Positions 3,147 to 40,131 of a DNA stretch of 54,949 nt are shown here, in pieces (position 1 is the stretch's first letter; every line of letters begins with the position of its first letter). Below the pieces are notes generated by a model. The model searched no databases. It was not told the DNA's origin and saw only the letters and a list, made by a program, of their open reading frames with translations. The translations under genes were made by a program, and so were the position numbers. This stretch comes from Planctomycetota bacterium (GTDB lineage: Bacteria > Planctomycetota > Planctomycetia > Pirellulales > PLA5), in contig QEVJ01000020.1 in the NCBI GenBank assembly GCA_003576845.1, positions 1 to 54,949 of the forward strand, read 5' to 3'.

Positions 3147-3343
3147 GGTGGCACCGGTGGCTTTATCCGCCAGTGCGGCGGTGCGAACTGGCTTTCCATT
3201 TTCGATTGACCCTGCTTGCCATGCTCAACGGGCCAAGGCTTTCGTTCGACACGGTCTGATTCGAGAACGGTGGGAGCGGGGCTCGCGAGAATGGAGAGGT
3301 TGTCCTGGGCACTGCACTGGTGGGTAAAGCCACCAGTGCCACC
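3147..3343. repeat. Inverted pair of 30-bp GGTGGCACYGGTGGCTTTA repeats
   Basis: The left arm at 3147-3176 and the reverse complement of the right arm at 3314-3343 agree at about 26 of 30 positions. Each arm is itself partly palindromic (GGTGGC...GCCACC). The 3089-3471 spacer contains only this pair and the half REP element at 3380-3440; no gene was seen. Confidence 0.7.
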
Positions 3344-3379
3344 TTGCCGCTGGGGAACGGATTGAATCGTGATGGCAAG

Positions 3380-3440
3380 CGGCTTGGCGGGTCTTGGGCG
3401 GCTTTTGCTCGGAGGCGTCGGTGGGCACAGCCCACCCTAC
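3380..3440. repeat. Half copy of the TAGGGTGGGC REP element
   Basis: Contains GGCTTGGCGGGTCTTGG, TTTTGCTCGGAGGCGT and the terminal palindrome GGTGGGCACAGCCCACCCTA. These match in order the right half of the two complete elements that flank the RAYT gene (31781-31935 and 32528-32678). The left half is missing here. Confidence 0.75.
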
Positions 3441-3471
3441 GTGACCACCCCGCCGCGACTGAGAGAGCGAA

Positions 3472-31780: not shown

Positions 31781-31935
31781 TAGGGTGGGCTGGGCCCACC
31801 TTTCGTTCCATTTCGGCCCGCGTTGGACTGCCGTGGCGCTTAATTCCCGCTGGACTTCTGCGCCTTGATTGCGGGCGGCTTGGCGGTTTTGGAGGTGCTC
31901 TTGCTAGGAGAGATCGGTGGGCACAGCCCACCCTA
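31781..31935. repeat. Paired REP element, copy A (downstream of RAYT)
   Basis: 155 bp bounded by TAGGGTGGGCTGGGCCCACC and GGTGGGCACAGCCCACCCTA, which are near-perfect reverse complements. Each end is a small palindrome. The interior shares long blocks with copy B at 32528-32678 (TTCCATTTCGGCCCGCGTTGG, GCGGGCGGCTTGGCGG). It ends 12 bp from the transposase stop codon. Confidence 0.85.
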
Positions 31936-31947
31936 AATTTGCGGCCT

Positions 31948-32508
31948 TTACTCCATTGCTGTGGCGTCGAGATCGGAGAGGGTATCGGGAATCGCGGAGC
32001 GGCCCCAATTCGCGTCGTAAACGCCCGCTGCGGCCCAACGGTGGAACGACGACCACGGCCAATCGATCGGCGATTTGGCGAGGCCGTGCTTCACCGGGTT
32101 GTAATGCACGTAATCGAAATGGCGGTCGAAATCGGCATCGTTTTCGATCGTGTGTTCCCAAAACCTCGGTTGCCACACGCCCCGGTCGCCGCGCTGTCGC
32201 CGTTTTTCGCTGATCGCCCGTTCCTTCCCGCCGGCCGCGAGCCAGCGCTTCGTGAACTCCTTCTTGATCCACGCCCAACGCGCGGAATAGGCATCGTCGC
32301 CCGGCGGCAACGACCAAATCGCGTGAAGGTTGTCGGGCAGAAGAACGATTGCGTCGATGTGAAACGGCCACGCGGCTTTCGCTTCGCGGAGGCACGCCGA
32401 GAGGATTCGCCGAGCCGGTTCGGAGCAAAGCCAGCGAGCGCGGCCGCGCGTGACGACGGTGAAGAAGAACGTTCCGCCGGGCACGAACCAGCGACGATAG
32501 TCAGCCAT
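31948..32508 (-). CDS. REP-associated tyrosine transposase (RAYT, Y1 family)
   Basis: 186 residues; full length for a RAYT. Motifs in order: YRRWFVPGGTFFFTVVT, RARWL, the position of the HUH metal site at residues 58-65 (PDNLHAIW), GDDAYSARWAWIKKEFT, RGVWQPRFWEHTI and the catalytic-Tyr region DYVHYNPVKHGLAKSPIDWPWSS (Y133). The enzyme class nicks and moves single-stranded REP/BIME elements. The expected HLH of the metal site reads NLH (N60, codon AAC for CAC), so activity may be impaired. Copies of a paired REP flank it on both sides. It is not a typical IS, since no terminal inverted repeats of its own were seen. Confidence 0.93.
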   Translation of the reverse strand: MADYRRWFVPGGTFFFTVVTRGRARWLCSEPARRILSACLREAKAAWPFHIDAIVLLPDNLHAIWSLPPGDDAYSARWAWIKKEFTKRWLAAGGKERAISEKRRQRGDRGVWQPRFWEHTIENDADFDRHFDYVHYNPVKHGLAKSPIDWPWSSFHRWAAAGVYDANWGRSAIPDTLSDLDATAME

Positions 32509-32527
32509 GCGAACGATTCTATTTGCG

Positions 32528-32678
32528 TAGGGTGGGCTGCGCCCACCTTTCTTTCCATTTCGGCCCGCGTTGGGCTGTCGCGGCGCTCGTTCTTCGGTGG
32601 TTGGATCAGGATGGCGGGCGGCTTGGCGGGGCTGGACTCGCTTTTGCTCGGAGAGTTCGGTGGGCACAGCCCACCCTA
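32528..32678. repeat. Paired REP element, copy B (upstream of RAYT)
   Basis: 151 bp, same orientation and organisation as copy A: TAGGGTGGGCTGCGCCCACC at the left and GGTGGGCACAGCCCACCCTA at the right. It starts 20 bp before the RAYT start codon. Its last three bases, CTA, are the stop codon of the M24 peptidase on the minus strand. Confidence 0.85.
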
Positions 32679-33863
32679 CGTTGTTTCGTGAAGGGTCACG
32701 ATGCGGGATTGAATCGGATCGCCCGTAACGTGAAGCGTATTCTCGGCAACGAACACGTTCACTTCGCTGCGTGCGCCGAACTCGGGTAGGTAGATTCCCG
32801 GCTCGATCGAGAAGCAGGTTCGCGGCAGGACTCGGCGGGTGTCGTGGGTTTCGAGGTTGTCCATGTTGGCGCCGTTGCCGTGGGTTTCTTGGCCGATGCT
32901 GTGGCCGGTGCGGTGGATGAAGTATGGGCCGTAGCCGGCGGCTTCGATGACGGCGCGGACGGCGTCGTCGACCTGGTAGCCACGTAGGTCGCGGCCCTCG
33001 GCCATTGCCGTGCGGACGCATTCGATGCCCGCGTCGCGGGCGGCGGCGACGATGGCGAAGATTGTGGCGTATTTCTCGGGGACCTCGCGGCCGACGAACG
33101 CACAGCGGGTGTAGTCGCTGTAGACGGCGCCGGGCCGGTCGAGCTTTGCCCAGAGATCGACGAGGAGGAAATCGCCCTCGCGGATTTCGGCGTCGTTCTC
33201 TTTGCTCGGGGCGAAGTGGGGATCGCCGCTGTGCGGACCGACGGCGACGATCGGCGGATGGTCGGTCACGAGATCGTTGGCGGCAAAGTAGTCTACGATC
33301 GCGGCTTGAACTTCGGTTTCGCGGATGCTGCCGCCCCCGCGCGTGCGTTCGGCCACGAGCCGCCAAACCATGTCGAACGCGGCGGTGGTGAGCCGCGAGG
33401 ATTCGAGGTGCGACCGCCATACGGCGTCGTCCCAGGTGGCCTCGAAAAGCTGGATGAGGTCGCCGGAGCTTTCGATCTCGACGCCGAGCGAGCGGACGAG
33501 TTCGATCGTGCCCGCATCGACGCGCGAGACGTAGGGATTGCCGCCGCGGGGGACGTATTCCATCGCGACGCGGCGCAATCCGGCGACGAGTTTCGCCAGG
33601 CCGGCCTCGAACTCCTGCCAGCGGAGATAGACGTGCTTCTCGCCCGGCAGATGGTCGAGCGGGCCGGACTCGATGCGATGGACGAGCTTTCGCGGCGGGC
33701 CCTCGCGGGGGATGGCGTAGGCGAGCCGGCGGGACGTGTGGGCTTCGGGCGGAATGTCGAGCACGCGGCGGGCAAGGACGTTCGAGCCGCGAAAGTCGTA
33801 CAACAGCCAACCGTCGAGCTCGAACTCGGCGAGGGCGCGTTGGATGGCGGGGAGGTCGAACAT
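32676..33863 (-). CDS. M24 family metallopeptidase (Xaa-Pro aminopeptidase-like)
   Basis: 395 residues. N-terminal creatinase-like domain (GWLLYDFRGSN ... RRLAYAIP) to ~155, then the pita-bread catalytic domain with all five metal ligands in place: two Asp (LVDLWAKLD..., YSDYTRCAFVG), His in FIHRTGHSIGQETHG, and Glu in CFSIEPGIYLP and SEVNVFV. It cleaves N-terminal residues before proline, or a related substrate, in the cytosol. It lies 9 bp downstream of the MenC-like gene on the same strand, so the two probably share a transcript. The last codon is followed by TAG contributed by the REP element. Confidence 0.9.
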   Translation of the reverse strand: MFDLPAIQRALAEFELDGWLLYDFRGSNVLARRVLDIPPEAHTSRRLAYAIPREGPPRKLVHRIESGPLDHLPGEKHVYLRWQEFEAGLAKLVAGLRRVAMEYVPRGGNPYVSRVDAGTIELVRSLGVEIESSGDLIQLFEATWDDAVWRSHLESSRLTTAAFDMVWRLVAERTRGGGSIRETEVQAAIVDYFAANDLVTDHPPIVAVGPHSGDPHFAPSKENDAEIREGDFLLVDLWAKLDRPGAVYSDYTRCAFVGREVPEKYATIFAIVAAARDAGIECVRTAMAEGRDLRGYQVDDAVRAVIEAAGYGPYFIHRTGHSIGQETHGNGANMDNLETHDTRRVLPRTCFSIEPGIYLPEFGARSEVNVFVAENTLHVTGDPIQSRIVTLHETT

Positions 33864-34928: not shown

Positions 34929-34993
34929 GTCAGGCCGGCGCGGGTTGAGGTCTTCGAGAATGGTTGCGTTTTTCGCCGCTTGGCCTGACCTAC
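34929..34993. repeat. GTCAGGCC...GGCCTGAC inverted repeat, copy 1
   Basis: GTCAGGCCGGCGCGGGTTGAG at the left and CGCTTGGCCTGACCTAC at the right form an imperfect inverted repeat. A second copy is at 40068-40131. Both lie at gene boundaries (here between GGT and the MenC-like gene). Confidence 0.7.
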
Positions 34994-35013
34994 GATGCAC
35001 GATCGATGCACGA

Positions 35014-39901: not shown

Positions 39902-40067
39902 AGATGCGGGTGAAATTGCGGGGTGGAATCACGAAGACAATGCGACGCTCGCCCGGTTTTGCGGGTGGCGAGGGGAGTAGTTCAGGCCAAGCGACATTCG
40001 ACTCCGCCATTCGCGATTCGCCAAATCCGCGCCGGCGTGACGGAGGTTGACGTTGGGCGGCAGTTCC

Positions 40068-40131
40068 GTCAGGCCGGCGCGGGTTGAGTGCGCGCGGGAT
40101 GGCGAGTCGTTTTCCGCTTGGCCTGACCTAC
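40068..40131. repeat. GTCAGGCC...GGCCTGAC inverted repeat, copy 2
   Basis: GTCAGGCCGGCGCGGGTTGAG at the left end and GCTTGGCCTGACCTACC at the right end, with a different ~25-bp loop from copy 1 (34929-34993). It lies directly downstream of the gene at 40145-42004 and may serve as its terminator. Confidence 0.7.

Follow-up and report, generated by a model that had tools for sequence, protein, structure and literature searches.

RAYTs are domesticated transposases of a known type. A relative of the protein studied here, TnpA-REP of E. coli, binds its GTAG hairpin as single-stranded DNA and, by way of a 5'-phosphotyrosine, cleaves at a neighbouring CT, its metal being held by the HUH histidines and an Asn (PMC8266576, PMC6006769). 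Substitutions in GTAG are not tolerated by the E. coli enzyme, while group 3 enzymes are less strict (PMC8266576). The pairing of REPINs with RAYTs is already established (PMC3116915), and GTAG REP families have been reported both from Planctomycetes, in R. baltica, and from Verrucomicrobia, in O. terrae (PMC3733652). We analysed a stretch of 54,949 nucleotides from a planctomycete genome, referred to below as the window, and we are confident that it carries a REP/REPIN-RAYT system ('REPtron') of the GTAG superfamily, in which the RAYT is matched to a GGTGGGC hairpin that, by analogy, it would bind, cut and mobilise.

The RAYT named in the initial annotation, at 31948-32508, is an intact open frame from ATG to TAA. 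It scored 181.5 bits against NCBIfam REP_Tyr_transpos (NF047646; cut-off 80), and in a phmmer search of the PDB it matched E. coli TnpA-REP (4er8) at 1.7e-41, the sole solved relative by sequence. A Pfam search gave no match at E <= 0.001. The AlphaFold model (pLDDT 91.3, pTM 0.87) again had 4er8 as its top Foldseek match (E 4e-19), followed by IS200/IS605 transposases. The catalytic tyrosine and the Asn-Pro (Y---NP) are present in YVHYNP (residues 133-138), with Tyr133 and Asn137 aligning to Tyr115 and Asn119 of 4er8. By descent, fold and REP association this protein is a member of the RAYT family. Its motifs read DNLH / WQ / YVHYNP, and those of its relatives DHLH / WQ / YIHYNP. This signature appears closest to subclass 2.2 / group 2, yet the REP stem is short and perfect, not long and bulged.

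Table 1. Features of the RAYT locus and of the half REPIN in the window
Feature	Position	Strand	Basis
RAYT (TnpA-REP-like HUH-Y1 protein), 186 aa	31948..32508	-	NF047646; 4er8 by sequence and fold
Codon 60, AAC (Asn); first His of HUH elsewhere	32329..32331	-	alignment of 134 RAYTs
REPIN 1, downstream of RAYT; degenerate feet (ATAG, TTAG)	31781..31935	+	
REP arm of REPIN 1	31781..31800	+	
REP arm of REPIN 1	31916..31935	-	
REPIN 2, upstream of RAYT start; GTAG foot intact, both arms	32527..32679	+	
REP arm of REPIN 2 (GTAGGGTGGGCTGCGCCCACC)	32527..32547	+	
REP arm of REPIN 2 (GTAGGGTGGGCTGTGCCCACC)	32659..32679	-	
Half REPIN (right half), one REP arm at 3420-3440 on minus strand	3362..3442	+	

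As had been annotated, a complete element of about 150 bp lies on each side of the gene in the same orientation, and the two, at 31781-31935 and 32528-32678, are 79% identical. The ends of each are indeed palindromes that are reverse complements of each other: the arms are inverted copies of TAGGGTGGGCTGNGCCCACC, for which the window gave five matches where chance would produce 0.01. To this description we add a foot at the start of the arms. Extended by one base, the arm reads GTAG + GGTGGGC-TGT-GCCCACC, with a tetranucleotide foot and a stem-loop as in the REPs that accompany RAYTs. In single-stranded form the arm is predicted to fold into a GTAG-tagged hairpin with a 7-bp stem and a 3-nt loop (-7.9 kcal/mol, z about -3.3), and the whole REPIN is able to close on itself as a hairpin (z -4.0). 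Both flanking elements are thus REPINs in the defined sense, with inverted REPs, conserved ends, a less conserved spacer and the capacity to form a hairpin. The half copy first placed at 3380-3440 is real and somewhat longer than claimed, with 83% identity to the right half of the full element. It is abutted by another palindromic repeat (CACTGGTGGGTAAAGCCACCAGTGCCACC, window about 3225-3345), and a sequence like it occurs upstream of another RAYT-like gene of the same genome (G000:C70, about 1100-1420). The window also contains a half copy (34929-34994) and a full REPIN (39977-40131) of another REP family, GTAGGTCAGGCC, matching the flanks of the second RAYT of this genome, C81.

Pattern and BLAST searches were extended to the whole genome (7.05 Mb, 289 contigs). 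At three or fewer mismatches the REP was found 62 times, against a single match for the reversed pattern, and is therefore over-represented. The family proposed from the window was borne out by 50 REPs at one mismatch or fewer, 45 of which keep the first base (G) of the GTAG foot, and by 21 inverted pairs with their feet outward. Most of these pairs (17 of 21) are about 148-159 bp long. Among these 17, mean identity is 93% in the arms, a value partly ascertained because the copies were gathered by their arms, and 56% in the spacers (chance 28%). No near-identical full copy of REPIN 2 was found elsewhere in the genome; the best full copies are at most 75% identical to it, so that there is no sign of recent movement. 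Full copies of the C81 REPIN family reach 81-91% identity, and this comparison of two query copies is consistent with the GGTGGGC family being the quieter one.

The association of this hairpin with one type of RAYT was followed across genomes. In a tree of 133 RAYT proteins the window RAYT groups with L213, L228 and L217 (69%, 61% and 59% identical to it; SH-aLRT support 84%). The initial annotation had proposed looking for matching palindromes beside the closest RAYTs, and they are there: the GTAG-GGTGGGC-NNN-GCCCACC hairpin flanks all four members of this clade, and outside it the stems are mostly others. Two RAYTs elsewhere in the tree that had also been labelled GGTGGGC, L128 and L211, were not counted as having the same REP, theirs being a longer hairpin beginning GGTGGGCCGAG. 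Within a panel of 27 RAYT-bearing genomes, the clade's four genomes hold 34, 28, 17 and 73 exact copies of the hairpin, and the other 23 hold one copy in one genome and none in 22. Taken as five or more copies, the REP is abundant in 4/4 clade genomes versus 0/23 others (Fisher p 6e-5). The GTCAGGC REP (GTAGGTCAGGC-NNN-GCCTGAC) shows another distribution across these 27 genomes, with as many as 182 copies in the genome of L227.

The stem type could be labelled for 93 RAYTs of the tree, on which it changes 48 times, compared with 76.8 changes on average over 500 shuffles, none of which gave fewer than 72. Stem difference also rises with the distance between RAYTs (Mantel r 0.29, against 0.10 at most in permutations). 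Across these 93 RAYTs the type of REP stem follows the phylogeny of the protein. At 21 of 94 labelled RAYT loci a REPIN was seen on either side of the gene, which means that bracketing recurs. C81, the second RAYT of the window genome, is 59% identical to the window RAYT, has an intact HLH and is bracketed by two copies of its own, different REPIN; each RAYT of this genome therefore has its own element. Of 297 genomes surveyed in the order, 14 had the exact REP, 56 a RAYT (E <= 1e-20) and eight both (Fisher p 0.0012, uncorrected for kinship). The RAYTs of several of these eight genomes are flanked by other stems, and the order survey is for that reason weaker evidence than the 27-genome panel. 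Two RAYTs from the gammaproteobacterial methanotrophs Methylovulum and Candidatus Methylumidiphilus, with GGTACGC stems, are 56-57% identical to the planctomycete RAYT, which suggests transfer between phyla.

The repeats can nevertheless occur without a detectable cognate RAYT, as follows from two genomes. In G111, of the same order, the exact GGTGGGC hairpin occurs 85 times, and several of the copies form close inverted pairs spaced by about 40 bp. No RAYT of the window subfamily was detected there, only RAYT-like genes of other types, and the two RAYT-like loci examined had no GGTGGGC hairpin. The congener G001 has eight exact REP copies, with a spacer shared with the REPINs of the window genome, and a search of its 92%-complete assembly turned up no cognate RAYT. 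A repeat equally common where this RAYT is lacking was to count against the proposed source locus; G111 and G001 go part of the way towards that. A candidate truncated orthologue of the window RAYT in the congener (G001:C231) was rejected: it ends at a contig edge and is flanked by GTAGGTCAGGC. Likewise a RAYT fragment whose 5' end carries a half GGTGGGC REPIN (G001:C364:1200-1420, L187) is of the MPNHVHLL type, not the window type. Neither RAYT nor REPIN adjoins the M24 peptidase locus of G001, and no exact insertion junction is demonstrable at this locus because the next gene is a different PEP-CTERM protein.

The one unusual feature of the window RAYT is in its HUH motif, which reads Asn-Leu-His (NLH) where HLH is expected and so lacks the full metal-binding motif. 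His occupies the first HUH position in 133 of the 134 aligned RAYTs with a residue there, the window RAYT being the sole departure, and its Asn60 aligns with His59 of 4er8. Tyr133, His62 and Asn137 are kept, and Asn60 stands for the remaining metal ligand. Judged from the alignment, the H60N change takes away one of the two metal-binding histidines of the predicted active site. Because of this change the present activity of the protein, as an HUH nuclease, is doubtful. The window RAYT is not an old pseudogene, since 34 of 35 conserved RAYT columns are kept and its branch (0.33) is not long; with the frame also open, any loss of activity would be recent. H60N may reflect a recent loss, a tolerated ligand change or a sequence error. 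The RAYT of L234 (OFTM22 genome) is also altered at its catalytic site, with the catalytic Tyr replaced by Glu (GAA), the frame otherwise open and GTAGGTCAGGC REPs flanking.

It is quite possible, at somewhat below even chances, that the window RAYT is catalytically dead and that the REPINs have become relics, or else persist without a transposase because they serve the host, for example in mRNA end structure or in termination. Besides H60N itself, the degenerate feet of REPIN 1, the contrast between old spacers and well-kept hairpins, and the repeats of G111 and G001 all agree with such a loss. However, the conserved columns, open frame and branch length would make it a recent one, the conservation of the arms is in part a product of the search, and an Asn might still bind metal. 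An unlikely reading is that this is a naturally metal-site-altered (Asn-U-His) HUH protein under constraint, either a non-cutting REP binder or an active nuclease in which Asn serves as a metal ligand. That H60N is an error of assembly or sequencing, behind which the RAYT would be ordinary and active, also seems improbable. In favour of an error, the difference is of one base (AAC instead of CAC), the assembly is in 289 contigs and only one aligned sequence departs; against it, single-base errors are uncommon in covered contigs.

Another candidate mover of the GGTGGGC REPINs is C81. It has an intact motif in the same genome, and a GGTGGGC REPIN lies 5 kb from it; but C81 is flanked on both sides by its own REPIN and sits elsewhere in a tree on which stem type follows the protein, so that we hold movement of the GGTGGGC REPINs by C81 in trans to be very unlikely. 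Even less credible is a chance meeting, in which the RAYT inserted next to a repeat that has nothing to do with it or came to be enclosed by copies of one. GGTGGGC REPINs do occur near RAYT-like genes of another type, about 70 bp from the one at C70 in the window genome and beside a relic of a C70-type RAYT in G001. Chance adjacency does not account for the same hairpin at the three nearest RAYTs, which are in other genomes, nor for its abundance solely in the clade genomes of the panel.

We therefore return to the REPtron reading. The window RAYT would be a single-strand DNA HUH-tyrosine transposase. On the analogy of TnpA-REP from E. coli, it would bind its hairpin, with the GTAG tag and the 7-bp stem, where single-stranded DNA is exposed, cleave beside it through a phosphotyrosine at Tyr133 and move the inverted pair as one unit. 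Such movement would have dispersed the approximately 21 inverted pairs and the single hairpins through the genome. The initial annotation saw in this locus the source of the family. The pairing of RAYT and repeat supports this, while H60N and the repeats of G111 and G001, where no cognate RAYT was detected, limit it. Given the Asn-Leu-His reading of the HUH motif and the loss of both GTAG feet from REPIN 1, we regard the locus as the probable historical source, which may no longer be active.

Across planctomycete genomes, then, a single RAYT clade has been shown to occur with a single REP stem. The 93 natural RAYT/stem pairs, with short perfect stems that vary with the protein, are a direct data set in which to look for the residues behind stem choice. 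Provided that H60N is real, this copy offers a natural experiment on whether a RAYT has to cut DNA to be kept.

Compared with described systems, the pairing at this locus, though well supported, is ordinary for the RAYT family, except for the loss of one metal-binding histidine. E. coli TnpA-REP (4er8; subclass 2.2 / group 2 RAYT; PMC6006769, PMC8266576) is alike in predicted fold, length, catalytic Tyr and Asn ligand, and GTAG-tagged REPs flank its gene as well; it differs in that the window RAYT has Asn for the first HUH His. The subclass 2.2 signature is DHLH / WE / YIHYNP (PMC6006769) and the window RAYT has WQ, not WE. A stem bulge is required for activity with E. coli REPs (PMC8266576), whereas the stem of the window REP is a perfect 7 bp with a 3-nt loop. 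The GTAG REP families of PMC3733652 share the GTAG tag, stems of 6-9 bp, dimers and RAYT genes flanked by GTAG repeats; GGTGGGC is absent from the text of that paper, whose consensus sequences stand in its figures, outside a text search. Pseudomonas fluorescens SBW25 (PMC3116915) has REPINs of the same build, as inverted REP pairs with conserved ends, a less conserved spacer and a predicted ssDNA hairpin. The window REPINs are about 150 bp compared with 71 bp between the end motifs of the SBW25 GI REPIN, and they number tens of copies, in a different phylum, compared with hundreds in SBW25 (PMC3116915). In both genomes a different REPIN type stands beside each RAYT (PMC3116915).
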